The notes under the pieces were generated by a model. That model ran no database searches, was not told the DNA's origin, and saw only the letters and a list, made by a program, of their open reading frames with translations. Of a stretch of 46,875 bases of DNA, positions 7,390 to 43,007 are shown piece after piece (the stretch's first letter is position 1; every line of letters starts with the position of its first letter). The translations under genes were made by a program, and so were the position numbers. Source of the stretch: Gaiellales bacterium (GTDB taxonomy: Bacteria > Actinomycetota > Thermoleophilia > Gaiellales > JAICJC01); NCBI GenBank assembly GCA_036403155.1, contig DASWRM010000032.1, positions 1-46,875 on the forward strand, given 5' to 3'.

Positions 7390-10300
7390 GTGCGCATCGC
7401 TCCGAATACTCCGCGCGGTTTCCGCGCCCTGAAGCTCATGGTCGTTCTTGTGCTGGTCGCGCTCGCGGCCGGGCTGACGGGGTCGTCCGCGTCTGCGGTG
7501 GGACTGGTCGTCGATCAGGCGACGGATGACGGCACTGGCAACGTCAACGGGTCGCTGAGCTTTGCAATCGAGCAGGCGAACGCTTCCACCGGGGAGACGA
7601 TCACCTTCGCCTCCGGCCTCTCAACGGTGACGGAGACGGCCTCCCTCCCAGCCATCACGAAGCCCACAACCATCAGCGGAGCGAACGTGACGCTGGATGG
7701 ATCAGGCGCGACGGCGGGCGCGAACGGCATCACGCTGGGTCCTGGGTCGGGCGGCTCGGAAATCGACGGTCTGACGGTCACGGGCTTCACCCGCTCGAAC
7801 ACCAGCGGCGGAAACGGAATCTTGGTTCAGTCCAGCGGAGACACGCTTTCCGACGTGACGGTCACGAGCAACGGTGGCTACGGGATCTACCTCTCCGACG
7901 TCTCCAATACCAGGGTAAAGGGGAATACCGTCGGTGGCTCCGGTTCGGCGGGTAACGGCTTTGGCGGGGTTCGCATCGACGGAAACTCCGGTGGCAACGC
8001 GACCGGCAACGTGATCGGCGGCTCCACCCCCGCCGATGGCAACACCATCCTGAACAACGCGAACAACCAGATCTATATGGAAGGCAGCACCAGCGCCAGC
8101 CAAGCGAACCACAACACCATCGAGCACAACACCATCACAAACTCGCCGTCGTCCTCGGCGAACGGCGTGGCGATCATCGGCAACCTAAACGTAATCTCCA
8201 ACAACGCCATCTCAGGCACTGCCGGCCCGGCCATCGTCATCCGCACCGACAGCTCAGGTAACACGATCTCTCACAACTCGCTGACGGTTACTGGCTTCCC
8301 GCAGATCAAGCAGGAGGCCGGATCAAGCAACGATGGTCAGGTGCCGCCGATTCTCGAGTCCGTCGACGCCGGCGGCAACGTCGTGGCGGATGCGCCCGTC
8401 GCCACCGGACATAGCTTCACGACTGAGTTCTTCGCCTCCGCCGCCTGTGACCAGGCGGCGCAGTTCTTAGAGGCAGACACCTTCAACTCGGGGCAGCAGC
8501 GAACCATCGCGCTGAATCTCCCGAGTGGGTTGGACAAGGTGACCGCCACCGCGACGGACGATACGACCCACGACACGTCCACGCTTTCCAACGCGGTCGA
8601 CCCGGCTCAGGACTGCGGCGCCCCGCCGGCGACGCATGCGGATCTCAGTACGGATATCTCGGCTCCGGCGACAGTAGCGGCGGGGAACTCGGTTACGTAC
8701 GACGCTTCAGTGTCAAACGCGGGCCCGGCCAACTCCGGCTTCACGCTCACGGTTACACTCGATTCGTCTGAGACATTCGTCAGCGCGCCAGCCGGCTGTT
8801 CGAACGCTAGCGGTACGGTCACGTGCACAGGAACGCAGACAGCGGGCGCAGCAGCGGCTCATTTCTCGATCGTCGCTTCAACTCCGTCGTCCCAGGCAGC
8901 GGGCGCGACGCTATCGACGTCATCTTCTGTCGCTGCCAACGCCCCGGTGACCGATCCGATCGCTGGGAACGACGGTCCAAAGACCGCGACGACAACTGTG
9001 ACAAATCAGGCTGATCTGTCGGTGACGGTTGCGAATCATGTTTCGACGTCGCCGGTGATCGCTGGGTCGCCTGCGCAGGGGTCGTTCTCGACCCAGGCGA
9101 CGGTGTCGAATGGTGGGCCGTCGGATAGCCACGGCTACAAGGTGACGTATTCGCTGGGGACGAGTGGTGGTGGACAGGCGCCGACGGACGTGGCGTTCGC
9201 TTCCCCGGGTGGCTCGGGTTGTGTGTATGGCGCGACGCATCAGATAGTGGTGTGTACGGAGCAGACGAGTTTGACGCCGGCGTCTGGGTCGAATACGAGC
9301 GAGGTAGCGCCGCAGCAGACGGTGGTGGCGTCGAGTGCTGCGCTTGGTGATTACACGGTGACAGCGGCGGTGCTGCCGATCTCGCCTGTGACTGACCCGG
9401 ATACAAGCGGCGCGAGCCAGGATAGCGACGTCGCCACGACGAACGTGACCGCCCAGGCCGATTTATCCGTAACGGGTGTGTCTAGCACGCCGACGAATGC
9501 GCCAGTGGTCGCTGGTGGGCCGGTTGCTGCGTCGGGATCGTTCTCGGTCCAGGCGACGGTGTCGAATGGTGGGCCGTCGGATAGCCACGGCTACAAGGTC
9601 ACCTATGCGCTGGCAACGACCGGTGGCAGTGGTCAGACGCTAACAGATGTTGGGTTTGTGTCCCTACCGACTGGGTGCTCGCTCACCGCGGCTGGTGTGG
9701 ATGACAGCGTTGATTGCTCGAGGTCGACGAGCCTGAGCGGCTCGTCGCATGGCAGTGAGGCGGCGCAATCGCTGACTGTGCAAGCGGCTAGCTCAGCGCT
9801 CGGTGGCTACACGGTCACAGCCACCGTGTCTCCGAGCGCTGCCGTGACGCAGCCGCCCGGGAACGATCCCAATCAGGATCGCGCATCGGCGACGCAGAAC
9901 GTGACGGCGCAAGCTGATCTGAAGGTAACGGGTGTCGTGAGTACTCCCTCGAGTGCGCCTGTCGTTGCTGGCGGGCACGCGCCGGGGTCAGGCTCATTCA
10001 CGACGCAGGCGACGGTGGCGAATGCTGGGCCGTCTGATAGCCACGGCTACAAGGTGACTTATGCATTGGGGACGACCGGGGCCAGTGGCCAAACGTTGGC
10101 AGATGTGGGCTTCGTGTCGCTGCCGACCGGGTGCTCCTTCACTACAGCGGGGCTGGACGATAGTGTGGATTGCACCAAGTCTACGAGCTTGAGCGGCTCA
10201 GCGCATCAGAGCGAGACGGCCCAGACGCTTGAAGTTGACGCGGCTAGCTCGGCGCTTGGGGATTACACGGTCACAGCTACCGTGTCTCCGAGCGCTCCGG

Positions 10301-11754
10301 TGACCCAGCCGTCCGGGAATGACCCGAATCAAGATCATGCGTCCGCCGCGACCGCTGTGGTGGCGCGGGCGAACCTTTCGGTGACGAAGTCTGGCTCTAG
10401 CTTCAACAACAACTACCTGGTCAGTGGTACCGAGTCAGCCAACCTTGTATATGCCAACCTCGACGCGACGAAGAACGTCGTGACGTATACGATCACGATC
10501 ACCGCGCTTGGCGGCCCGTCAGATGCTCGCAACGTCACGATCACGGACGACGTGAACGCTGGAATAACGCCCTCGCCCAATGTTACGTCCGCATTTTCAG
10601 CGCGGATTTGCGGACTAAACATTCCGACCGAAGGTACGACTGGATGTGCACCGCTCACAACGGCCGGTGTGAACGTCGGCACAATGAAGCCGACAGACAG
10701 TCGGACGTACACCATCACATCGACCGCTAGCGATTCGCTGAGAAGTGGCGGTTACTTGGTTGGCGGCACAACTCCGAACCTCATCGGCAACGTCGTCACC
10801 CTGACGTCCACCACGCCCGACGTACATACGCTTTCGCCTATCAATAAGCAGGCGGCGTCCGGCCGTCGCGCGTTCATCGCTACGCGGCCCGACGCCCCAA
10901 CCAACGTCGCGGCCTTCGCCGGTAACGGCAACGCTGGCGTCACCTGGTCGTCCTCACTCCATGATGGTGGGCAGCCTCTTACGTACCACATCACTGCGAC
11001 ATCGGGCTCGACCGTCATCACGCGAGACCTAGATCCGAACACGGTCGGTTCGAACGGTTTTAACCTCGGACCGAATAACACATTCCAGTACCTCTTGGCT
11101 CCGCTTACGAATGGGCTGACGTACACGATCACGGTGCGTGCCGATAACACAGTGGGGTCGAGCGGTCTGTCGAACACCGCGACGACTCTGCCGTCAGTGA
11201 ACAACTCCGCCTTCGTCTTCACAAACGGCGGCACCCAGCAGACGGCCCCGGTTCCATCGACCACCGACCCCCAAGTCGAGTCGCAGACGTTCAACACCGG
11301 CACCAGTGGCCTCGGCACCATCCAAGAGTGCGCAACCACGGGCTCGAACTCGTGCAACCTCACCAACGGCGCGATCGCGAACGCGACACTCGCCGGCGCG
11401 GCAAACAAGAAGAACACGACGATCATCCCGACCACCTTCTGCGGCGGGGCGCAGTGCATCGGCGCCGTCGTCATCACGAAGCTCAGCAACCCCGCCAACG
11501 GCCGCTACACCGTGATCCTGCAGTACGCAAAGCAGATCATCAGCGGTACCGGGACGAGCTTCAAGGTGTACTTCGAGAATCCGGCTACGCAGACGAGTCC
11601 CACCGTGATCCCGGATTGCCCGAACAAGGGCACTCCGACGGTGCCGGCGTGCGTCGTCAAGATCGTGAGCCAGCCGGCTTCGAACCCGGCGCTCAAGGTG
11701 CAGCTCAGCGTCGCACCGGGCGTCTTCGACCCGGTCATCGGAACCCGCAAGTAG
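7390..11754 (+). CDS. Large secreted repeat protein (beta-helix, DUF11-like repeats, FN3)
   Basis: A 1454-aa exported protein starting at GTG 7390 after a GGGGGG ribosome binding site. Residues 1-36 are a Sec signal peptide (hydrophobic VVLVLVALAAGLTG, probable cleavage after SASA). Residues about 37-320 have the NGSLSFAIEQANA signature and Asn/Gly-rich strands of a right-handed beta-helix. A divergent DUF11/CARDB-like domain (about 415-540) is followed by three close repeats of about 150 residues (from 541, 690 and 842), a fourth divergent one (994), a fibronectin type III domain (about 1167-1268) and a C-terminal domain with paired cysteines. There is no LPXTG motif or C-terminal membrane anchor, so it is probably released or held non-covalently. 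Codon use is visibly less GC-rich than in neighbouring genes. Function unknown; adhesion or surface structure is the usual guess. Confidence 0.92.
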   Translation: MRIAPNTPRGFRALKLMVVLVLVALAAGLTGSSASAVGLVVDQATDDGTGNVNGSLSFAIEQANASTGETITFASGLSTVTETASLPAITKPTTISGANVTLDGSGATAGANGITLGPGSGGSEIDGLTVTGFTRSNTSGGNGILVQSSGDTLSDVTVTSNGGYGIYLSDVSNTRVKGNTVGGSGSAGNGFGGVRIDGNSGGNATGNVIGGSTPADGNTILNNANNQIYMEGSTSASQANHNTIEHNTITNSPSSSANGVAIIGNLNVISNNAISGTAGPAIVIRTDSSGNTISHNSLTVTGFPQIKQEAGSSNDGQVPPILESVDAGGNVVADAPVATGHSFTTEFFASAACDQAAQFLEADTFNSGQQRTIALNLPSGLDKVTATATDDTTHDTSTLSNAVDPAQDCGAPPATHADLSTDISAPATVAAGNSVTYDASVSNAGPANSGFTLTVTLDSSETFVSAPAGCSNASGTVTCTGTQTAGAAAAHFSIVASTPSSQAAGATLSTSSSVAANAPVTDPIAGNDGPKTATTTVTNQADLSVTVANHVSTSPVIAGSPAQGSFSTQATVSNGGPSDSHGYKVTYSLGTSGGGQAPTDVAFASPGGSGCVYGATHQIVVCTEQTSLTPASGSNTSEVAPQQTVVASSAALGDYTVTAAVLPISPVTDPDTSGASQDSDVATTNVTAQADLSVTGVSSTPTNAPVVAGGPVAASGSFSVQATVSNGGPSDSHGYKVTYALATTGGSGQTLTDVGFVSLPTGCSLTAAGVDDSVDCSRSTSLSGSSHGSEAAQSLTVQAASSALGGYTVTATVSPSAAVTQPPGNDPNQDRASATQNVTAQADLKVTGVVSTPSSAPVVAGGHAPGSGSFTTQATVANAGPSDSHGYKVTYALGTTGASGQTLADVGFVSLPTGCSFTTAGLDDSVDCTKSTSLSGSAHQSETAQTLEVDAASSALGDYTVTATVSPSAPVTQPSGNDPNQDHASAATAVVARANLSVTKSGSSFNNNYLVSGTESANLVYANLDATKNVVTYTITITALGGPSDARNVTITDDVNAGITPSPNVTSAFSARICGLNIPTEGTTGCAPLTTAGVNVGTMKPTDSRTYTITSTASDSLRSGGYLVGGTTPNLIGNVVTLTSTTPDVHTLSPINKQAASGRRAFIATRPDAPTNVAAFAGNGNAGVTWSSSLHDGGQPLTYHITATSGSTVITRDLDPNTVGSNGFNLGPNNTFQYLLAPLTNGLTYTITVRADNTVGSSGLSNTATTLPSVNNSAFVFTNGGTQQTAPVPSTTDPQVESQTFNTGTSGLGTIQECATTGSNSCNLTNGAIANATLAGAANKKNTTIIPTTFCGGAQCIGAVVITKLSNPANGRYTVILQYAKQIISGTGTSFKVYFENPATQTSPTVIPDCPNKGTPTVPACVVKIVSQPASNPALKVQLSVAPGVFDPVIGTRK
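9010..10368 (+). repeat. Three tandem ~150-codon repeats inside the secreted protein gene
   Basis: Units start at 9010, 9457 and 9913 (spacing 447 and 456 nt), each opening with Ala-Asp-Leu-(Ser/Lys)-Val. Each carries the core SDSHGYKVTY. Units 1 and 2 share about 50 identical consecutive bases (9094-9143 and 9550-9599); units 2 and 3 share long near-identical stretches in their second halves. The DNA-level identity implies recent duplication or gene conversion. Confidence 0.9.
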
Positions 11755-11757
11755 AGA

Positions 11758-14700
11758 TCAGTTCAGCGCAGCGACCGCAGCCCGCTCGACCAGCGGGACC
11801 TGCGGGAGCCTGACCACGCCCAGCCGCTCGAGGAGCGTCACGCACCCGTCCGCCACCAGCGGGTCGGGCGGGCGATCCTCGAGCAGGGCGAGGTCGAGCA
11901 GCGCGGCCAGCGACTGCGCCTCCTCGTAGAGCAGTCCGACGCGGCGGCTCTCGTCGAGGCTCAGCTCGAGCAAACCGTTGGCCTGCTCCGGGCGGCCCAG
12001 CTGCATCAGCGCATAGGCCATCACCCGCCGCAGCAGCGGCCGCTGCAGCACCGTTTCGCCGACCGGCCGCTCCAGCACCTGATCGGCCGTTCGGAGCGCC
12101 GCATCCGGCTCACCCCCGAACAGCTGCGCTTCGGCGACCCTCGCCTCAGTCTCGACCATCATGAACGTGAACTGATTGGCCGTCGCCATCGCGAGCGCCT
12201 GCTGCAGCAGCTCCAGCCCCTCCTCCGCGCGCCCCCCGCGTGCCGCCGCCCTGCCGAGGTTTCCGATCGCGGCCGGAATCAGCTGGTCGAACCGCGCGGC
12301 GCGCCAGACGTCGAGCGCCCGCCGGAACCGATCCTCGGCCGCCTCGAGGTGCCCCTGGTCGGACAGGATCTCGCCGATGTTGTTCGTGGCCATCGCCGCG
12401 TTGACCGCGTCCCCAGTGCGCAGCCTGATCGTCTCCGACCGCTCCCACAGCTGGCCGGCTTCGTCCCAGCGGCCCTCGTAGTAGATGAACCCGCCCAGGT
12501 TGTTCAGCGCCAGCGCCTGCAGCGGCAGGTCGCTGATGCGCTCCGCGATCGCCAGCGCCTGGCGCGCATGGTCCTCGCCCCCCAGGCCCAGCTCGGTGTG
12601 CGCCCATCCCAGGATCAGGTGCGCCTCCGCCACCGTCGACATGTCTCCGGCCGCCTCGGCCGCGGCGATCGCGTCGGCCCCCAGGGCGACCGCATCGCGG
12701 TGCCGTCCCTGCGCCTGCTTGATGGTCGCGCGGGCAGCGATCAACCTCGATCGCACGCGCGACGCCTCCTCGCCTTCACTCTTGACGATTGCCGCCAGCC
12801 CGCGGTTGATCCATCGCAGCGATTGCGTGAAACGGCCCTCGCGCTCGCGCACCCACGCCTTGCGCAGCAGCAGCGCCGCCTCCTTCACCGGGTCGTCATG
12901 CACGAGCCTCTGCGCCTGCTTGAACGCGTGCATGGCACGGTCGTAGCGGCCGATCCGGTCCTCGAGCTCGCCCAGCGTCTCGAATGCGTCGGCGAGCGAG
13001 ATGCGGGGCACGTTCCCCGCCCGAGCGGCCGCCTCGACGGCGTCCGAGAGCAGGGCCGCCGCCTCGGTGTTGGCGTACCGCAGCCGCGCGCGGTCCGCCG
13101 CAGCCCGGCCGTACCGCCACGCCAGGTCGTATCGCTGAGCGCGGTTGAAGTGCAGCGCGAGCAGGCTGGCATGCTCGTCCGCATTGGGCAGCCGCTCCAG
13201 CGCCTCACCCGCCCGGGCGTGCAGCTCTCGCCGGCGCCGGAACGGCAGACCCTCGTACGCGGCGTCGCGCACCAGGGCATGGCGGAACCGGTGGTGCTCG
13301 CCCTCCATCGTCAGGAAGGCCGACAGCCGCCGCCAGGTGGCTGCGTCCGGTGGCGCCTGGTCGGCGAGCACGTGCGCCACCAGCTCGTCCGAGAAGCTCA
13401 TTCCAAGCACGCTCGCCAGCCGCAGCAGCCGCCGGTCGGGAGGCGGCAGCTGGTCGATCTCGGCCATCGCCATCGCCTCGATCGTGTCGGGCAGATCGGT
13501 CACGTCGTCTGCGGCTGAGCGGAGCAGTTCGCGCAGGAACAGCGGGTTGCCACCCGAGCGCTCGGCCAGCGCCGTCCGCGCATGTGGCAGCAGCGGCTGG
13601 TCGGTGGTGGCCGCTCCGATCAGCTTCTCGGCCTCGTCGGCGGACAGCCGCTTCGGGCGCAACGTGATCGCGCCTTCGGCCGGCAGGTAGCCGGTGGTGT
13701 CGTCCCGGCGGCTGACGCAGATAACCCAGCCGGCGCGGGGCGCCTCCTCGGCGATGCGGGCCATGACCTCGGCGGACGCCTCGTCCATCCAGTGCACGTC
13801 CTCGATCGAGATCAGCGCCGGCGATGTGCGCGCCGCCAGCAGCTGCGCCGTCGCCTCGGCCAGCCGCATCCTGCGGAACTCCTCCTCGAGGTCGGCCACC
13901 TCCGGAGTCATGGGCACGCTTACGTCGAGTGGCACCGCAAGCAGCGGCAGCCACGGTTCCAGCGCCGGGGCCGACTCCCGCACCGCCTGCTGGAGGAGCG
14001 TCGACCGCCGTTCCGCGCTGTCACCGGGCTCGCAGCCGATCGCCTGCGCGACCAGCTCGCCGATCACGCCGTAGGGGCTTGACATCGTGTACAGCTCGCA
14101 CGCCGATCGCAGCTGAGGCAGCGCACCGCCCAGCCGGCGCACCTCGGTCATCAGCCGCGTCTTGCCGATGCCCGGCTCCCCCACGATCGCGATCTGTGCG
14201 CTCTCGCCCCGCCAGGCTCCGTCCACCGCGGCCGCCAGCACGTCGAGCTCCCGGTCGCGGCCGACCAGCGGCAGCTCATCGTCGTCTGACCGCCGCGCCC
14301 CCGAGATCGCGCCGACCGCGTATGCCTGGACGGGAAGGCGCTTCCCCTTGACCATGAACGGCTCCAGCGCCTGGGTGTGGAAGTGGATCGGCGAGGCGTC
14401 GAGCACGGGCGCCGTCGCAAGCAGCTGCCCGGGCGCCGCCTTCGCCATCACACGTGCGGCGAGGTTCACCGCGTCGCCCATGACCGTGTACGTCCGCCGG
14501 TACGACGGGCCGATGTCGCCGGCGAAGACGGGGCCCCGGTTCACGCCGATCCGCACCGGGATCTTCGGCTCGGACACGATGATCGACCGGAGCGTCAAGA
14601 GCATCCGCTCCTCGTCGTCGCCGAGCGCCTGCGGCGTGCCGGCCACGAGGATGATCTTCCCGCCGTCCTTGTCGATGTCGCTGCCGAGGAACGTCACGCC

Positions 14701-15573
14701 GTGCTCGTCGGCGGCCAGCTGCGCGGCGATGACGAGGTGTTCGAGCCGCGCGGCCACGACATCCGGGCCGTCATCGCGCATCATCGCGTCCACGCCGTCG
14801 AAGTGGACGAACGCAACGGTCACCGGCCGGTGCACCGGATCGTCGCCGCCTGCCAGCACATGGCCCCGGATCGCCGTCGGCATGTAGGCGACCAGGTCGG
14901 GATCGGCCAGCCCGTCGTCCAGGCCCGGTGCCTGCACGCCGATGCCCGCCGGCGAGCGACGGAGCAGGAACCCCGGGCCCTTCGCCGCCCCGATCGCGTC
15001 GGCCGGGAGGCTGGCCGCCGTGCTCGGGCTGACCAGGATCTCGCCCGCGGTGGCCGTCGACTCCATGGTCACCGTCTCGGTCGCCGCCGGTCCGGTCACG
15101 ACCAGCTCGCGGTGCGACTCGCCGATCAGGAAGATGTGGAATATGCCGCTGTGCACGCCGACCGACATGCGCAGCGTGATGGCACCGGCCGATGTGGGGA
15201 TCGGGCCGATCTCGCGAAGCTCACGGCGCATCCCGAATGCGGATCGCGCGGCATGGCCGGCATGGTCACCGCCCGTGAACAGCAGCAGCAGCGCGTCGCC
15301 GCCGAACTTGATCAAGCCGCCGCCGTTGCCGTAGGCGATCGCGAGCAGGCGGGCGAAGACGGGACCGAGGACGTCGGTCACCTCCTCCGCACCGGCCTTC
15401 CCCTGGCGCGCCAAGCGCTCCGACATCTTGGTGAATCCCGAGATGTCGACGAACACGATCGACCCCTCCACCTCCCGCCAGCGGGAATCCGGTGACTCCA
15501 CGGCCCACCGCAGGAGCAGGCGTGGCAGGTAGGGGCGGAGCAGGCGAGTCGGGGCAGCGTCCTGCTCGTTCAT
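11758..15573 (-). CDS. Tandem class III cyclase - P-loop ATPase - TPR protein (soluble adenylyl cyclase-like)
   Basis: A 1271-aa protein with the same order of parts as mammalian soluble adenylyl cyclase: two cyclase homology domains (about 35-195 and 248-390), a P-loop ATPase (Walker A GEPGIGKT, Lys471) and a long TPR region (about 850-1271). Domain 1 has both metal-binding aspartates (FVDISGFT, Asp43; KFGGDALL, Asp93). Domain 2 supplies the Thr363-Asn370-Arg374 trio (TVMGDAVNLAAR) matching the adenine-binding threonine, transition-state asparagine and arginine of human sAC; its substrate lysine is not clear. cAMP synthesis is therefore likely. Start ATG 15573 is where the cyclase homology begins, though no good ribosome binding site precedes it. 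Next on the strand upstream are an MFS transporter with a cyclic-nucleotide-binding domain and a free one. The stop lies 3 bp from that of the convergent repeat protein. Confidence 0.9.
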   Translation of the reverse strand: MNEQDAAPTRLLRPYLPRLLLRWAVESPDSRWREVEGSIVFVDISGFTKMSERLARQGKAGAEEVTDVLGPVFARLLAIAYGNGGGLIKFGGDALLLLFTGGDHAGHAARSAFGMRRELREIGPIPTSAGAITLRMSVGVHSGIFHIFLIGESHRELVVTGPAATETVTMESTATAGEILVSPSTAASLPADAIGAAKGPGFLLRRSPAGIGVQAPGLDDGLADPDLVAYMPTAIRGHVLAGGDDPVHRPVTVAFVHFDGVDAMMRDDGPDVVAARLEHLVIAAQLAADEHGVTFLGSDIDKDGGKIILVAGTPQALGDDEERMLLTLRSIIVSEPKIPVRIGVNRGPVFAGDIGPSYRRTYTVMGDAVNLAARVMAKAAPGQLLATAPVLDASPIHFHTQALEPFMVKGKRLPVQAYAVGAISGARRSDDDELPLVGRDRELDVLAAAVDGAWRGESAQIAIVGEPGIGKTRLMTEVRRLGGALPQLRSACELYTMSSPYGVIGELVAQAIGCEPGDSAERRSTLLQQAVRESAPALEPWLPLLAVPLDVSVPMTPEVADLEEEFRRMRLAEATAQLLAARTSPALISIEDVHWMDEASAEVMARIAEEAPRAGWVICVSRRDDTTGYLPAEGAITLRPKRLSADEAEKLIGAATTDQPLLPHARTALAERSGGNPLFLRELLRSAADDVTDLPDTIEAMAMAEIDQLPPPDRRLLRLASVLGMSFSDELVAHVLADQAPPDAATWRRLSAFLTMEGEHHRFRHALVRDAAYEGLPFRRRRELHARAGEALERLPNADEHASLLALHFNRAQRYDLAWRYGRAAADRARLRYANTEAAALLSDAVEAAARAGNVPRISLADAFETLGELEDRIGRYDRAMHAFKQAQRLVHDDPVKEAALLLRKAWVREREGRFTQSLRWINRGLAAIVKSEGEEASRVRSRLIAARATIKQAQGRHRDAVALGADAIAAAEAAGDMSTVAEAHLILGWAHTELGLGGEDHARQALAIAERISDLPLQALALNNLGGFIYYEGRWDEAGQLWERSETIRLRTGDAVNAAMATNNIGEILSDQGHLEAAEDRFRRALDVWRAARFDQLIPAAIGNLGRAAARGGRAEEGLELLQQALAMATANQFTFMMVETEARVAEAQLFGGEPDAALRTADQVLERPVGETVLQRPLLRRVMAYALMQLGRPEQANGLLELSLDESRRVGLLYEEAQSLAALLDLALLEDRPPDPLVADGCVTLLERLGVVRLPQVPLVERAAVAALN

Positions 15574-15620
15574 GACTCGTTCGAGTGTACCGGTCGCTTG
15601 CAGAGGGCGGAAGGCCCCGC

Positions 15621-17267
15621 TCAACCACCCGCGCCGAGCGAGTGAAGCTCGCTCAGCCGCTCGTCCACGAGCCCGTCGGCTCCGGTGGTGACCGCCGCGT
15701 CGCCGGCCACGGTCCGCAGGAACTCGTCCCGCCCGAGCGCGTAGAGGTCCGAATCGATCGATGCGACGACCGTCGCCGTCCGCGGGATGTCCCGCAGCAG
15801 CGCGATCTCGCCGGCCACCGAGCCCGGCCCCAGGTCGGCGAGGTGCGAGCCGTCGCGCAGCACCTCGAGCGCGCCGCCGTCGACGAGGTACACGTGGTCG
15901 CCGTGGTCGCCCTGCCTGATGAGGACGTCCCCCTTGCTGACGTGCATGGGCTCGAGATGCGCCGCGACCCGCTCCATCCCGGCCGGCGTCAGGTAGGAGA
16001 ACATCTCGATCGACCGCAGCAGCGCGATGCGCTCCGGCGGTGCGCCCGCAAGCCGGTCGACCCGTCGCAGGGCACGCCATGCCAGCGCCAGGCCAAGCGG
16101 TTGCAGGGCGGCGACGACCACCAGCGTGGTCGTCAGCGAGACGTGCGCGGCGAGCACGGCCACGGCCACCGCCCCCAATCCGATCGCGGCCCGCATCAGG
16201 CTCTCGAGCACGCCGAACACCCGCGCCAGCAGGTCGTCGTCGGCGGCGCGCTGGAGCAGCGTGTACGTGACCACGTCCATCAGCACCATCCCCGCGCCCG
16301 GCACGGCGACCATCGCGTAGGCCAGCCCGGTGGTGGTCGTCAGTGCCAGCACGGCCAGTGCGCCCGACCACGCGACCATTCCCAGCGTCATCGCCGGAAC
16401 CAGCCGCGGCCGTCCCACCAGGATCGCGGACCCCACGGCGCCGCAGATCGCGCCGATCCCGGCTGCGGACGCGAGCAGCCCTGCGCCGCCGCTCGCCACC
16501 CCCAGCCGTTCCACGGCGACCGCGACCAGCAGCACCTGGAAGAACGCTCCCCAGACGACCATGGACACGCTGTAGGTGCCGACGAGCACGCGGACGTCCG
16601 GGTTCTGGATCGTCGTCCTGAAGCCGGCCAGCAGGTCCTGGCGATGAAGCCGGCGCGGCGCCGGGCGTCGATCCGGGGTGATCCGAAGCGCCGCGACCGC
16701 CGTCGCAGCAGCCAGCGCCGCCATCGCGAGGAAGCCGTATTCCGGCCCCGCGGCGATGATCAGCCCGCCCGCGAGCAGGGGCCCGGCCAGGTTGCCCACA
16801 CCCTCGAGCAGCGAGACGGTGACGTTTGCAGCCGTCAGCTGCGCGGGCGTCGAGGAAAGGTGGGGGAGCATCGCCGCCTGCACCGGCCGGTACACCGGGA
16901 TCGCGACCGCCGATGCCACGCCAAGCGCGTACACCCACCACGACGGCAGGTCGGCCGCCGCTGCGGCCGCCGTGGCGGTCAGGAGTAGTGCGGTGACCGC
17001 CCCGGTCGCAACCAGGACGAGCCGGCGCGAGAAGCGGTCGCCGAAGCTGGCCGTGAAGGGCGCCGTCGTGGCGGCGACCACGGACCGGGCGAGTGCCAGC
17101 AGGCCGGTCGCCTCGTAGCCACCGGCGTTGTACGCGTAGACGATGAGCGCGATGGCAAGGCCCTGCTCGCAGGTGATGTACGCGCCCCACGCGACCATCG
17201 ACCAGCGCAGATCGCGCCCGCGGATGGCCAGCTGGATCGCGCGCCAGACCGGGGCCAGCAGCCGCAT
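15621..17267 (-). CDS. MFS transporter fused to a C-terminal cyclic-nucleotide-binding domain
   Basis: A 548-aa protein. Residues 1 to about 400 form a 12-span MFS transporter of the MFS_3/DHA3 type (ASFGDRFSRRLV loop; PVYRPVQAAMLPHL). Residues about 415-530 form a cyclic-nucleotide-binding domain with GDVLIRQGDHGDHVYLV and the phosphate-binding cassette AGEIALLRDIPRTATV, including the arginine that contacts the cyclic phosphate. I start at ATG 17267 because AGGAG lies 7 bases upstream; the GTG at 17273 would be only 1 base from it. The gene is 16 bp downstream of the free cyclic-nucleotide-binding gene and 47 bp upstream of the cyclase, so all three are probably one operon. Inference: transport activity gated by cAMP. 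Cargo unknown. Confidence 0.9.
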   Translation of the reverse strand: MRLLAPVWRAIQLAIRGRDLRWSMVAWGAYITCEQGLAIALIVYAYNAGGYEATGLLALARSVVAATTAPFTASFGDRFSRRLVLVATGAVTALLLTATAAAAAADLPSWWVYALGVASAVAIPVYRPVQAAMLPHLSSTPAQLTAANVTVSLLEGVGNLAGPLLAGGLIIAAGPEYGFLAMAALAAATAVAALRITPDRRPAPRRLHRQDLLAGFRTTIQNPDVRVLVGTYSVSMVVWGAFFQVLLVAVAVERLGVASGGAGLLASAAGIGAICGAVGSAILVGRPRLVPAMTLGMVAWSGALAVLALTTTTGLAYAMVAVPGAGMVLMDVVTYTLLQRAADDDLLARVFGVLESLMRAAIGLGAVAVAVLAAHVSLTTTLVVVAALQPLGLALAWRALRRVDRLAGAPPERIALLRSIEMFSYLTPAGMERVAAHLEPMHVSKGDVLIRQGDHGDHVYLVDGGALEVLRDGSHLADLGPGSVAGEIALLRDIPRTATVVASIDSDLYALGRDEFLRTVAGDAAVTTGADGLVDERLSELHSLGAGG

Positions 17268-17283
17268 CCCCACGCTCCTGCGC

Positions 17284-17766
17284 TCAGTCCACGACCGTGC
17301 GATCCGCGGCGCGCAGCCGTCCGGCCAGGGTGTTCAGCATCGCCAGCGAGACCTTCGGCTCGCTCTCGAGCACCTTCTTGAACGCCGCCGTGCCGAGCCG
17401 CATGGCGAACACCTCGGTCTCCGCCTCGACCGTCGCGCTGCGCGGCGAGGCGTCCAGGAGCGCCAGCTCGCCGAAGAAGTCGCCTGCGTGGAGCTTGATC
17501 GCCCGCTTGCCGGGGCGCCGCACGCTCGCGGTGCCGTCCAGGATCACGTAGAACGCATCACCGCGGTCTCCGCTGCGCACGATCTCGGTATACGGCGCAT
17601 AGCGCTTCATCGTCGCCTTGTCGGCGACCCGGCGGAGGTGCCGCGTCGAGAGGCCGGCGAACAGGGGCACCGTCCCCAGCACCTCGGCCCATCCCCTGCG
17701 CGTCCCCGACCGGTGCCCGGTCAGTGCGGCGTCCATCAACTCTGCGGGTGCTCCCTGTGGGCTCAT
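17284..17766 (-). CDS. Cyclic-nucleotide-binding domain protein
   Basis: A 160-aa protein consisting of one CAP-ED domain (about residues 28-145) and no DNA-binding helix-turn-helix, so it is not a CRP-type regulator. The fold is clear from VPLFAGLSTRHLRRVAD, the strand SGDRGDAFYVILDGTASV and the phosphate-binding cassette FFGELALLDASPRSATVEA, with the glutamate and arginine that hold cyclic nucleotide. Start ATG 17766 has a strong ribosome binding site (GGAGGAG, spacing 6). It is the first gene of the three-gene set with the MFS-CNB fusion and the cyclase. It may act as a cAMP sensor for a partner protein or as a cAMP sink; neither is shown. Confidence 0.92.
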   Translation of the reverse strand: MSPQGAPAELMDAALTGHRSGTRRGWAEVLGTVPLFAGLSTRHLRRVADKATMKRYAPYTEIVRSGDRGDAFYVILDGTASVRRPGKRAIKLHAGDFFGELALLDASPRSATVEAETEVFAMRLGTAAFKKVLESEPKVSLAMLNTLAGRLRAADRTVVD

Positions 17767-17795
17767 CGGCGGCTCCTCCGTGGGGGCCGCAGAGT

Positions 17796-18326
17796 CTACT
17801 GACCGCCGGAGAGGCTCTCAACCGGGAGGAACCGCGCGCGCGGCAGGCGCATCGTGATCTCGCCGTCGTGCTCGAACCCGACCGTCCGGTACGCGCGCAC
17901 CGCGGGCTCGTTGCGCGGGTCGACGTCCAGCACGATCTCCCGCAGGCCGAGCTGCTCGAACCCGAAGCGGCAGACCAGCGCCGTCGCCTCCGTCCCCAGC
18001 CCTCGTCCGCGGAACTCGCCGACGCCGATCATGATCGAGAACTTCGCCCGGCGGCGTCCCACCGGCGTCAGGCGGGCGTCGCCGATCAGCCGGCCGGACG
18101 CGCCGTCGGTGAGCGCGAACACCACACGCTCCGGGTCGCTGAGGATGCGGCGACCCCAGTCGAGCAGCCCGCTCGGCGTCGGAGCCTGCGCCGGCCGGTC
18201 GCCGGGGGCGTAGAGATAGCGGATGGTGTCCGCGTCCTGCATCCAGCGCACCCACTCGCCGACCGAGTCGGTGGACAGGGGCGCCAGGCAGACCAGCCGC
18301 CCGCAGATCGGCTCGCGGATCGTCAT
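17796..18326 (-). CDS. GNAT N-acetyltransferase (RimJ/RimL-like)
   Basis: A 176-aa GCN5-related acetyltransferase of the RimJ/RimL/Acetyltransf_3 type. The acetyl-CoA pyrophosphate loop is GVGEFRGRGLGTEAT, followed by LREIVLDVDPRNEPAVRAYRT, the standard motif B with N-x-x-A-x-x-x-Y, and a final VGFEHDGE strand. Such enzymes acetylate protein N-termini, antibiotics or small metabolites; the substrate cannot be read from the sequence. It lies upstream of the cyclic-nucleotide genes on the same strand with a 29-bp gap, so co-transcription is possible. Acetyltransferases controlled by cAMP are known in mycobacteria, but this one has no cyclic-nucleotide domain of its own. Confidence 0.9.
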   Translation of the reverse strand: MTIREPICGRLVCLAPLSTDSVGEWVRWMQDADTIRYLYAPGDRPAQAPTPSGLLDWGRRILSDPERVVFALTDGASGRLIGDARLTPVGRRRAKFSIMIGVGEFRGRGLGTEATALVCRFGFEQLGLREIVLDVDPRNEPAVRAYRTVGFEHDGEITMRLPRARFLPVESLSGGQ

Positions 18327-39805: not shown

Positions 39806-40231
39806 TCACCTGGCTGCCTGGCGCTCCTCCGTCTCACGCAGCCGGCGGGCGAGCAGCTTCGCCACCTTGATGGCGATCTGGGGGTGCTGCTCGAGCAGCG
39901 GCGTGAACTGCCAGGATGTGAGCGCGAAGACGCGCAGTGGAGACTCCGCGATCACCGAGGCGGTGCGGCGGCCGCCCTCGTCGAGCAGCGCGACCTCGCC
40001 GAACGACGCGCCCGCGCCCAGGGTGGCTCGGCGCTCGCCCCGGGTCTCGACGCGGGCCGTGCCCTCGGCGATGACGAAGAAGCCGACGCCGCCCTCGCCC
40101 TCGCCGACGATCGTGTCCCCGGTGTCGTACCGGCGCTCCTTTGCGGCGGAGGCGACGGCGGCGAGCTCCTTCTCGGACAGCCCGTCGAAGAGCGGGACGC
40201 GTCCCAGGATCTCGGTGCGCTCGTCAGCCAT
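39806..40231 (-). CDS. Cyclic-nucleotide-binding domain protein
   Basis: A 141-aa protein consisting of one CAP-ED domain: VPLFDGLSEKELAAVASAAKERRYDTGDTIVGEGEGGVGFFVIAEGTARV region followed by the phosphate-binding cassette SFGEVALLDEGGRRTASVIA (given here in part), with Glu and Arg present but Pro replaced. No helix-turn-helix. It resembles the free domain at 17284 and makes a third cyclic-nucleotide-binding protein in the window. Start ATG 40231, with AGGAG close upstream; an in-frame start 60 bases earlier would add unrelated residues. It precedes the SRP RNA on the same strand and is divergent from tRNA-Ser. Confidence 0.9.
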   Translation of the reverse strand: MADERTEILGRVPLFDGLSEKELAAVASAAKERRYDTGDTIVGEGEGGVGFFVIAEGTARVETRGERRATLGAGASFGEVALLDEGGRRTASVIAESPLRVFALTSWQFTPLLEQHPQIAIKVAKLLARRLRETEERQAAR

Positions 40232-40324
40232 GCCACTCCTTCCGTTGCTCGCGGGAGCGCATAGTACAGCGCAGTGGGCGCCCGGGGGCAAGTGCCGGAC
40301 GGGGCTGGCATACTGGGGCCTCCA

Positions 40325-40510: not shown

Positions 40511-42460
40511 TCACATCGTCACGTACATGCCGACCTCGAGCAGACGGTCGGGCGGGATCTTGAAGTACCGCGCCGCCGGCGTCGAGTTCTGGTGCAGGAG
40601 CGCGAACAGCTTCGTCCGCCACCGCGACATGGTCGGCTCGCCCGCGGGCACGAGCGACACGTGGTTCACGTAGTACGACACATCATCGACGTCGATACGC
40701 AGGCCGTTGCCGTCGGCGATCCGAAGCGCGGCGGGGACGTCCGGATCGTCCTGGTACCCGTAGCGGGCGACGATGCCGACGAAGCCGAGGCGGTGGTGGG
40801 TCACTCGCAGGCGCTGGGAGGGCGGCACCGTGGGCACCGTCGCCGTCTCGACGGTCAGGAGCACGACCTGCTCGTGGATCACGTGGTTGTGGGCCACGTT
40901 CGTCATCAGCGCCGCGGGCACGGTGTCCTGGGACGACGTCAGGAACACGGCCGTGCCGGGCACGCGCACCGGCGGATCGTCCACCAGGCGGTTCAGGTAC
41001 CGGCGCAGCGGCACGCGCCCCTTGCTGATGCGGCGGTTGAGGGTCGCCCGGCCGCGCCGCCACGTCGTCAGCACCGCGAAGAAGACCGACCCAACGGCCA
41101 GCGGGATCCAGCCACCGCTGAACAGCTTCCCGAGGTTCGCGGCGAAGAACGTGAGCTCGACCGTGAGGAACACCGCGGCGCCGGGGATCACCAGCCACAG
41201 GCTCCTGTGCCACAGCACGCGGAAGACGGTGAAGGCCAGCAGCGTGTTGGTCGCGAAGATCGCGCTCAGCGCGACGCCGTACGCCGACGCCAGCCCCTCC
41301 GGGTCGCGGAAGCCGATCACCAGTGCGAGCACCGCCGCAAGCAGCGCCCAGTTGACGAGCGGGATGTAGATCTGACCGATGATCCGCGCGGACGTGTGCC
41401 GGATCGACATGCGCGGCAGGAACCCGAGCTGCACCAGCTGCTGGGTCACCGAATACGCCCCCGAGATGACGGCCTGCGAGGCGATCACGGTCGCCATCGT
41501 GGCGAGCACGACCATCGCCGTCTGCGCGGTCTGGCCGCCGGGGACGGCGATGAAGAACGGATTCGAGACGGCCGCCGGATGCTCGAGCACGAGCGCCCCC
41601 TGCCCCAGGTAGTTCAGCATCAGCGTCGGCAGGGCGACGACCAGCCACGCGCGGGTGATGGCCGTGCGGCCGAAGTGCCCCATGTCGGCATAGATGGCCT
41701 CCGCTCCCGTCACGGCCAGGAAGACGGATGCGAGCGACAGGAAGCCGGCGCCCGGCTCGTTCCACAGGAAGGCCGCGCCGTAGCTTGGTGACAGCGCCCG
41801 CAGCACGGCGGGGTCGTTCACCACGCCGCGCAGGCCGATCGCGCCGATCGCCGCAAACCACACGAGCATGATCGGGCCGAACAGCACGCCGATCGTGCCC
41901 GTGCCGAAGCGCTGGAGCAGGAACAGGGCGATCAGGATCGCGAGCGAGAACGGCACGACCTGCGCGGCCAGCGACGGAGACGCCACCTGCAGGCCGCTCA
42001 CTGCGGAGACGACCGAGATCGCGGGCGTCAGCATGCCGTCCCCATAGAAGAGCGACGCGCCGAGGATGCCGACCAGGATCAGGACCTCCTTCCGCCGCCC
42101 GGGAACGGCCCGTTGGATCAGGGCCACCAGCGCCATGATCCCGCCCTCGCCGTGGTTGTCGGCGCGCAGGATCAGGAGGACGTACTTGAAGGTGACGACC
42201 GTGAGCAGCGACCAGAAGATCAGCGAGAGCGCTCCGTACACGTGGGTCGGGCTCGGGGCCAGCGGGTGCAGCGTGAAGACGAGCTGCATCGTGTACAGGG
42301 GGCTCGTGCCGATGTCTCCGTAGACGACGCCGAGCGCGCCCACCGACAGCGCGAGCGCTCCCAACCGGGTCGTCCGTCCGTGGCCGACTGCGCTCTCGCC
42401 CGGTGTGCCGGCAGGCGCGGGTACCGAGCGGGTCGCAGACCGTGCGGTGAGCGCCTTCAT
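40511..42460 (-). CDS. kup: Low-affinity potassium transporter Kup
   Basis: A 649-aa KUP/HAK-family K+ uptake protein. Near the N-terminus is GVVYGDIGTSPLYT, the family signature, followed by GEGGIMAL, GASLFYGDGMLTPAISV, ALTGAEAIYADMGHFGR-like VTGAEAIYADMGHFGR, about 12 membrane spans, and a cytoplasmic C-terminal domain with GTAVFLTSSQDTVPAAL and the final strands. Length is close to E. coli Kup (622). Start ATG 42460 overlaps the uspA stop by 4 nt (ATGA). It ends an operon-like run kdpD-kdpE-uspA-kup, suggesting that a two-component system of KdpDE type controls K+ import through Kup here. Confidence 0.96.
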   Translation of the reverse strand: MKALTARSATRSVPAPAGTPGESAVGHGRTTRLGALALSVGALGVVYGDIGTSPLYTMQLVFTLHPLAPSPTHVYGALSLIFWSLLTVVTFKYVLLILRADNHGEGGIMALVALIQRAVPGRRKEVLILVGILGASLFYGDGMLTPAISVVSAVSGLQVASPSLAAQVVPFSLAILIALFLLQRFGTGTIGVLFGPIMLVWFAAIGAIGLRGVVNDPAVLRALSPSYGAAFLWNEPGAGFLSLASVFLAVTGAEAIYADMGHFGRTAITRAWLVVALPTLMLNYLGQGALVLEHPAAVSNPFFIAVPGGQTAQTAMVVLATMATVIASQAVISGAYSVTQQLVQLGFLPRMSIRHTSARIIGQIYIPLVNWALLAAVLALVIGFRDPEGLASAYGVALSAIFATNTLLAFTVFRVLWHRSLWLVIPGAAVFLTVELTFFAANLGKLFSGGWIPLAVGSVFFAVLTTWRRGRATLNRRISKGRVPLRRYLNRLVDDPPVRVPGTAVFLTSSQDTVPAALMTNVAHNHVIHEQVVLLTVETATVPTVPPSQRLRVTHHRLGFVGIVARYGYQDDPDVPAALRIADGNGLRIDVDDVSYYVNHVSLVPAGEPTMSRWRTKLFALLHQNSTPAARYFKIPPDRLLEVGMYVTM

Positions 42461-42948
42461 GCCGCCTCCGGCGGCTTGACGAACATCGTCCGCAGGCCGG
42501 GCTGCTCGGCCAGCCGCCGGGCGACCGGGTCGCGCAGCAGCGCGCTGACCGCGGCGCGGCCCGGGCCGGTTGCCCCGAGCACCACCAGCTCCGCCTTGCG
42601 GCGCCGCGCCTCGGCCAGGATCATCTCGGCGGGCTCCCGCGTCCGCGGCGCGACCACGTGCACGCCGACGCCGTAGCGCCCGGCCACCGCGCGTGCCCGC
42701 TTCGCCATCTCCTGGACGCGCTCGTCGGCCCCGGGCAGCTCGACGTCCATCTCCTCCCAGAGCGGGATCTGGGTGAACGCGACCAGCACGATCGCGGAGC
42801 GCCGCTCCGTTGCTAGACGGGCCGCCAGGTCGAGCATGTCGCATGGCAGCTCGGGCTGCGCGGTGTTGACGGGAACGAGGATCGAGTGGAAGCCCCGGCG
42901 CACCCGGGTGGTGCTCGTCTCGCGTGTCCGCATCAGCGTCATGCCCAC
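42457..42948 (-). CDS. uspA: Universal stress protein domain protein
   Basis: A 163-aa UspA-fold protein. It begins with ILVPVNTAQPE, where the usual Asp after Val-Pro is Asn, and ends with the nucleotide-binding-type loop VVLGATGPGR followed by DPVARRLAEQPGLRTMFVKP; the G-x2-G-x9-G(S/T) ATP loop is incomplete, so ATP binding is doubtful. Starts at GTG 42948 or ATG 42942. In canonical KdpD the Usp domain lies inside the sensor kinase; here the kinase lacks it and a free Usp protein is coupled to kup, so it may be a detached regulator of potassium uptake (inference). Confidence 0.88.
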   Translation of the reverse strand: MGMTLMRTRETSTTRVRRGFHSILVPVNTAQPELPCDMLDLAARLATERRSAIVLVAFTQIPLWEEMDVELPGADERVQEMAKRARAVAGRYGVGVHVVAPRTREPAEMILAEARRRKAELVVLGATGPGRAAVSALLRDPVARRLAEQPGLRTMFVKPPEAA

Positions 42949-43007
42949 ATCGTGGCGCGGAATGCGTCACGGAGGCATGACGATCAGGTCGGTTTGCGCA
43001 TCGGTTC

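Follow-up and report, generated by a model that had tools for sequence, protein, structure and literature searches.

An sAC-type twin cyclase encoded beside an MFS exporter with a cyclic-nucleotide-binding domain: a candidate direct-acting cAMP effector cassette in a Gaiellales bacterium

The window (the whole stretch of 46,875 nucleotides from a Gaiellales bacterium that was analysed here) carries on its minus strand, at 11758-17766, genes for a free cyclic-nucleotide-binding (CNB) protein, an MFS exporter with a C-terminal CNB domain (MFS-CNB) and a twin cyclase, all three of which were found in the list of open reading frames (Table 1). An earlier note on this DNA had described them as a cAMP sensor-like protein, an MFS-CNB transporter and a cyclase-ATPase-TPR protein, and these identities were confirmed by Pfam matches above cut-off for every domain, namely two Guanylate_cyc domains, AAA_16 and TPR_12 in the cyclase, MFS_1 and cNMP_binding in the exporter and cNMP_binding in the free protein. 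The note stopped one gene short, as a GNAT acetyltransferase gene is conserved with the block in a genome of the same genus, and the order of transcription is GNAT, free CNB, MFS-CNB and cyclase. The gaps are 29 bp between GNAT and CNB genes, 16 bp (with an ATG start at 17267) or 10 bp (with GTG) between CNB and MFS-CNB genes, and 47 bp between MFS-CNB and cyclase genes, such that the spacing of 16 and 47 bp previously given for the three same-strand genes holds with the ATG start. This start, giving 548 aa, is the likely one, having AGGAG 7 nt upstream and matching the start of a 64%-identical relative. A site scan of the block detected no terminator-like site inside it. The layout is operon-like and, together with the promoter-like site, this gives a weak indication that the block may be read as one transcript. 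An ORF of 1810 aa in the cyclase frame was rejected as a gene because it is the cyclase frame read on upstream. Only 3 bp separate the cyclase stop codon from the end of a convergent gene (7390-11754) for a beta-helix/DUF11/fn3 surface protein.

Table 1. Features of the block, with loci of related arrangements in other genomes
Feature	Position	Strand	Evidence or remark
GNAT acetyltransferase (RimJ/SpeG type)	17796..18326	-	Acetyltransf_3 4.5e-18
Promoter-like site TTGAGA-17-TAGACT	17793..17821	-	26 bp before CNB start codon; consensus scan, 1 found vs 0.1 expected; weak
Free CNB protein, 160 aa, without DNA-binding domain	17284..17766	-	Pfam cNMP_binding 1.4e-16, sole domain
Phosphate-binding cassette of free CNB protein, F-GELALLDASPRSATV (Gly99, Glu100, Arg109, Ala111)	17428..17475	-	Translation; matches PKG/PKA cassettes
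MFS exporter with C-terminal CNB domain, 550 aa from GTG	15621..17273	-	MFS_1 8.2e-27, cNMP_binding 2.5e-18
CNB domain of exporter, residues 415-525 (from GTG)	15699..16031	-	hmmsearch on orthologue and homologues; PF00027 at 15708-15947
Phosphate-binding cassette of exporter, A-GEIALLRDIPRTATVV (Glu489, Arg498)	15765..15815	-	Conserved in homologues
Twin-CHD adenylyl cyclase, ATG, 1271 aa, C1-C2-NTPase-TPR	11758..15573	-	Pfam, alignment, AF2, fold search
C1 cyclase domain with metal Asp43 and Asp93, without Asn/Arg pair	15004..15462	-	PF00211 match; Asp43/Asp93 19/19
C2 domain with Lys302, Thr363, Asn370 and Arg374, without metal Asps	14302..14826	-	PF00211 at 14320-14601
NTPase (AAA_16), Walker A GEPGIGKT	13735..14271	-	Pfam 6.5e-18, residues 435-613
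TPR region, residues ~832-1226	11896..13080	-	TPR_12, TPR_10, TPR_8, TPR_MalT; PDB matches to kinesin light chain TPRs
Loci with CNB-enzyme fusions	L098 4720-6498; L101 486-2480; L105 4265-6424; L151 382-4040; L007		
Surface proteins beside twin cyclases	window 7390-11754; L097 2145-5009; L099 11771-14113; L090 4395-5819; L096 10599-11993		

Both catalytic domains of the cyclase, C1 and C2, lie within its first 425 residues. Alignment of 19 cyclase sequences demonstrated that the metal aspartates Asp43 and Asp93 are each invariant, while in C2 Arg374 was present in 19/19, Thr363 in 14/19 and Asn370 in 13/19. These five residues, which the earlier note had described as intact, are all in place and align with Asp47, Asp99, Thr405, Asn412 and Arg416 of soluble adenylyl cyclase (sAC). 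Neither domain has the full set, the Asn/Arg pair being absent from C1 and the metal aspartates from C2, so that one active site is predicted at the C1/C2 interface. The adenine-selecting pair lies in C2, with Thr363 placed by alignment and Lys302, less certainly, by aligning the DK-G loop manually, and this adenine-type pair indicates that the local product should be cAMP. For the AF2 model of the cyclase core (pLDDT 93.2, pTM 0.92), the best 24 PDB fold matches were all human sAC (TM ~0.83), with transmembrane cyclases ranking lower.

Cyclases of sAC type are already known in bacteria from sequence. The window cyclase resembles ADCY10/sAC, its best structural match, in the tandem C1-C2 arrangement with one working site predicted, the Asp/Asp metal pair of C1, the Lys/Thr and Asn/Arg pairs of C2 and an NTPase followed by a long TPR-like half, but shares only ~21% identity with it and has Val168 at the position of Arg176. 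The likeness to sAC proposed previously therefore extends to architecture and fold but not to the switch, Arg176, that bicarbonate releases in sAC (PMC12250328). Arginine was found at this position in none of the 19 cyclase sequences compared, and a bicarbonate effect of the mammalian sAC kind is thus not expected. The counterpart of sAC Lys95 is present as Lys89; salmon sAC, with Lys95 changed to Asn, and sea urchin sAC, with Arg176 changed to Asn, are reportedly not controlled by bicarbonate (PMC12867704). The sequence and the model point to a cyclase of sAC order that is apparently a competent adenylyl cyclase. Assignment to the TOMM kinase/cyclases was rejected, the NCBIfam match of 185.8 bits being far below the cut-off of 705.75. 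Between the catalytic core of the twin cyclase and copies in other classes of the phylum (G336:C66, G453 and G272 vs G215), identity is 60-69%; these are at least as close as the same-genus copy (~60%), suggesting horizontal exchange of the twin cyclase.

The exporter cassette is strictly conserved. Glu489, Ile490, Ala491, Leu492, Arg498, Thr499 and Ala500 were invariant in 36/36 homologues, most of which are ~33-42% identical to the window protein and all of which share the MFS-then-CNB order, and again in 26/26 members of a second set (A2). Such conservation is what selection for cyclic-nucleotide binding would be expected to look like. The Gly-Glu and Arg of the phosphate-binding cassette are present in both the free CNB protein and the exporter, in agreement with the earlier description of both cassettes as intact. 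In fold searches with the AF2 model of the exporter (pLDDT 89.4, pTM 0.81), the MFS half resembled SotB, MdfA, NorA and G6PT and the CNB half resembled the CNB domains of SthK, HCN and PKA. Most of the 26 members gave TIGR00900-, EntS- or Mef-like matches in the MFS half, the window protein itself falling below all curated cut-offs. These matches to proton-antiporter, multidrug and siderophore exporters, together with the fold, mean that 'exporter' fits better than the 'transporter' used previously, and the protein is probably an MFS member of the multidrug/siderophore proton-antiporter kind. Pfam and fold searches detected MFS only, with no NHE fold or voltage-sensor family.

Compared with the products of the genes at the same positions in L001/L088, the free CNB protein shows 73% identity over residues 24-160 and the GNAT protein 74%. 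We considered whether the free CNB protein could be a degenerate CRP (a CRP/FNR factor) and rejected this on the basis of its 160 aa, its cNMP_binding domain only and its lack of an HTH. Similarly, a split Pat/KATmt made up of the GNAT and CNB proteins was rejected, as these are separate genes and the GNAT is of SpeG/RimL type; its nearest solved structures are spermidine acetyltransferases and not Pat/KATmt.

Conservation of the whole block is narrow. All four genes occur in the same order in L001 (Thermoleophilia bacterium LS_ISSM_2_bin.20), a same-genus genome; the collection of named genomes contained no other close relative. This shared gene order, with the family-wide invariance of residues, indicates that the three-gene feature is not due to chance. 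Among 249 genomes of the class, relatives of MFS-CNB were present in 65 and relatives of the cyclase in 96, many of the latter only through the C2-NTPase half, and the two were adjacent in G000 (the window genome), G215 (at C115, a locus that agrees with that of L001) and G150. The last, from another family (L101), has genes for a PLP-decarboxylase-CNB, an MFS-CNB and a twin cyclase on one strand and is a partial equivalent. In the tree, the L101 MFS-CNB groups with the C36 paralogue of the window genome and not with the window gene, and the L101 cyclase falls in another clade. This indicates that the pairing of cyclase and MFS-CNB was not simply inherited with the gene; two separate origins, or an ancient origin followed by loss in most lineages, would explain it. 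The search for co-occurrence suggested by the earlier note was therefore positive within the genus and in part at L101, but elsewhere a cyclase was nearby in only 1 of 20 further MFS-CNB loci whose flanks were sampled. No cyclase was found beside the C33 and C36 paralogues in the flanks sampled, and no MFS-CNB/cyclase adjacency was seen in other classes of the phylum. On the basis of the 1/20 figure and the lack of adjacency in other classes, the idea that MFS-CNB genes are generally accompanied by cyclases was rejected, and local synthesis is evidently not a requirement of the MFS-CNB family.

A different pattern emerged when twin cyclases were surveyed in 15 Thermoleophilia genomes for a CNB domain within 4 kb, a criterion set after the first loci had been seen. 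This was the case for 10/16 twin cyclases versus 3/142 of the other cyclases listed from the same genomes (Fisher p ~1e-9, kinship ignored), where the boundaries of the other cyclase genes are approximate, counts are among the matches listed and the contigs are drafts. The expectation from CNB density was 0.4, and the ten loci reduce to roughly seven separate lineages. In an independent set of 30 twin cyclases from 25 genomes of other classes of the phylum, which was not used to form the idea, a CNB domain lay within 4 kb of five, compared with 0.67 expected (P ~5e-4, kinship ignored); one of these five neighbours is a weak match just over the Pfam cut-off, and the remaining 25 had no CNB neighbour. 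Partners in Thermoleophilia were MFS-CNB with free CNB, PLP-decarboxylase-CNB with MFS-CNB, glutaminase-CNB directly upstream, a free CNB one gene away, an EntS-like MFS-CNB and, as identified by eye, an oxidoreductase-like-CNB. Those in other classes include ABC-ATPase-CNB and patatin-CNB, which lie beside the twin cyclase in G338. CNB proteins were the only recurrent neighbours of twin cyclases across many loci. The proximity of twin cyclases and CNB genes is far above chance and suggests direct local control of transport.

The window genome (3.2 Mb, 98% complete, draft) was found by profile searches to contain 18 CNB domains and at least seven cyclases. The cassette is intact in most of its CNB proteins, which either stand alone or are joined to other domains; among them are the two further MFS-CNB paralogues, at C33 and C36, and a PEP-utilising-enzyme-like CNB protein identified by eye. 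The sole CNB domain next to HTH_Crp_2 (C68:7431-8003, L006) has lost both pocket residues, the cassette Glu (changed to Gln) and the Arg, and this CRP/FNR-type regulator therefore probably does not sense cAMP. Thus, the absence of a CRP-type transcription factor from the scheme, as proposed in the earlier note, is supported at the level of the draft genome. As a separate observation, some relatives (G075, G243, G033 and G147) have a very high density of class III cyclases, with 25-36 matches per genome of 2.6-2.8 Mb.

We consider that the locus is best explained as a direct-acting cAMP effector cassette, analogous and not homologous to the sperm sAC-SLC9C1 pair, and assign this reading a probability of roughly 0.55. 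The sequences and models on which it is based predict an sAC-type twin cyclase with one complete site and an NTPase-TPR half, in an operon-like layout with an exporter whose cassette is strictly conserved. The earlier interpretation is accordingly retained with regard to the cyclase, the intact pockets, the operon-like arrangement and the lack of an intact CRP, and is restricted by the narrow conservation of the block and the missing bicarbonate switch.

The cyclase may alternatively be one of several that feed a cell-wide cAMP pool read by many CNB proteins, in which case adjacency would reflect co-expression at most. With 18 CNB domains and at least seven cyclases in the window genome, cAMP need not be local, and a shared pool would also account for the C33 and C36 paralogues without a cyclase in the flanks sampled and for relatives with up to 36 cyclase matches per genome. 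However, such a pool does not predict the strong enrichment beside CNB genes that sets twin cyclases apart from other cyclases, with partners that differ by lineage, and we regard it as unlikely while giving it appreciable weight. The earlier proposal of locally made cAMP is thus favoured by this enrichment, but less strongly than had been claimed because of the many other cyclases in the genome.

It is improbable that the CNB domains respond to cGMP or another cyclic nucleotide for which the adjoining cyclase is not the source. Thr after the cassette Arg is a feature of cGMP-dependent kinases and is present in 36/36 exporters (Thr499 in the window protein), and the best PDB sequence matches of the CNB half were to Plasmodium PKG, so that the exporter ligand could be cGMP. 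However, the free CNB protein has Ser at this position, as does CRP, the adenine-type Lys302/Thr363 of the cyclase leads to cAMP as the expected local product, and dual binding of cAMP and cGMP is frequent among bacterial CNB domains. That these are unrelated genes, chance neighbours in a genus-specific operon, would fit an exact block found in two genomes of one genus only, but is very improbable given the short gaps, the lack of an internal terminator-like site and the recurrence of twin cyclase-CNB proximity in two genome sets.

Under the preferred reading of a direct-acting effector cassette, a cytoplasmic signal (a ligand or the ATP state) would be read by the NTPase/TPR half and would set the activity of the cyclase. 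The resulting cAMP would bind the CNB domain of the exporter and may move its C-terminal helix (residues 526-548) together with the linker after the last transmembrane helix, a shift that would change the export rate without transcription. As a second reader, the free CNB protein could act as a cAMP buffer or as an adaptor for a partner protein.

Teaching on bacterial cAMP centres on its role in transcription through CRP. A compact locus such as this, where the genes for source and target adjoin, offers a convenient system for asking whether a bacterium uses cAMP to gate a secondary transporter directly. The closest working precedent is the animal sperm pair, and the proposed likeness is one of function only: in both cases a secondary transporter with a CNB domain is associated with an sAC-type cyclase. 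Sea urchin SLC9C1 and sAC reportedly associate physically, and cAMP is reported to shift activation of the transporter (PMC12867704; PMC6052114). SLC9C1 is an Na+/H+ exchanger of the NHE type with a voltage sensor, whereas the window protein is a non-homologous MFS exporter without one.

MFS-CNBD proteins are also found in Mycobacterium tuberculosis, Rv3239c and Rv3728 being examples. The window exporter has the same domain order as the bacterial fusions that have been catalogued as presumed regulatory, unexplored fusions of MFS transporters (PMC10710835), but differs in that genes for a cyclase and for another CNB protein lie alongside its own. It may similarly be compared with actinobacterial CNB-fused effectors (ABC ATPase-CNB, patatin-CNB and Pat/KATmt), presumed to be direct, non-transcriptional effectors of cAMP, although the effector domain is different and the GNAT and CNB proteins of the window are separate, with the GNAT not of Pat type. 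Our literature searches for MFS-CNB in mycobacteria and for cyclases in Thermoleophilia, including the twin form in this class, returned nothing direct. As far as we found, two points appear to be new, namely the co-encoding of cyclase and MFS-CNB and the association, measured here, of twin cyclases with CNB-fused proteins of diverse kinds.

A broader and tentative possibility, which we think doubtful as a general statement, is that actinobacterial twin sAC-type cyclases are private cAMP sources for adjoining CNB-fused enzymes and transporters, with the window as a bacterial counterpart of sAC-SLC9C1 in which the CRP-like regulator is blind to cAMP. The link between twin cyclases and CNB fusions can serve as a guide to further pairs of this kind and points to enzymes that may be under cAMP control without transcription. 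CNB domains were seen fused to glutaminase, PLP decarboxylase, oxidoreductase-like, ABC ATPase, patatin and PEP-utilising-enzyme-like proteins, several of them beside a twin cyclase (Table 1).

Two further observations concern the surroundings of these genes. Next to a twin cyclase there is often a gene for a large surface protein, secreted and of Ig-like or beta-helix type, and these proteins are mostly not mutually homologous (Table 1). Finally, the window has a second free CNB protein (161 aa, intact cassette; 39806-40291, minus strand), and 219 bp upstream of its gene lies that for a KUP potassium transporter (40511-42970, minus strand), giving another same-strand pair of transporter and CNB neighbour.
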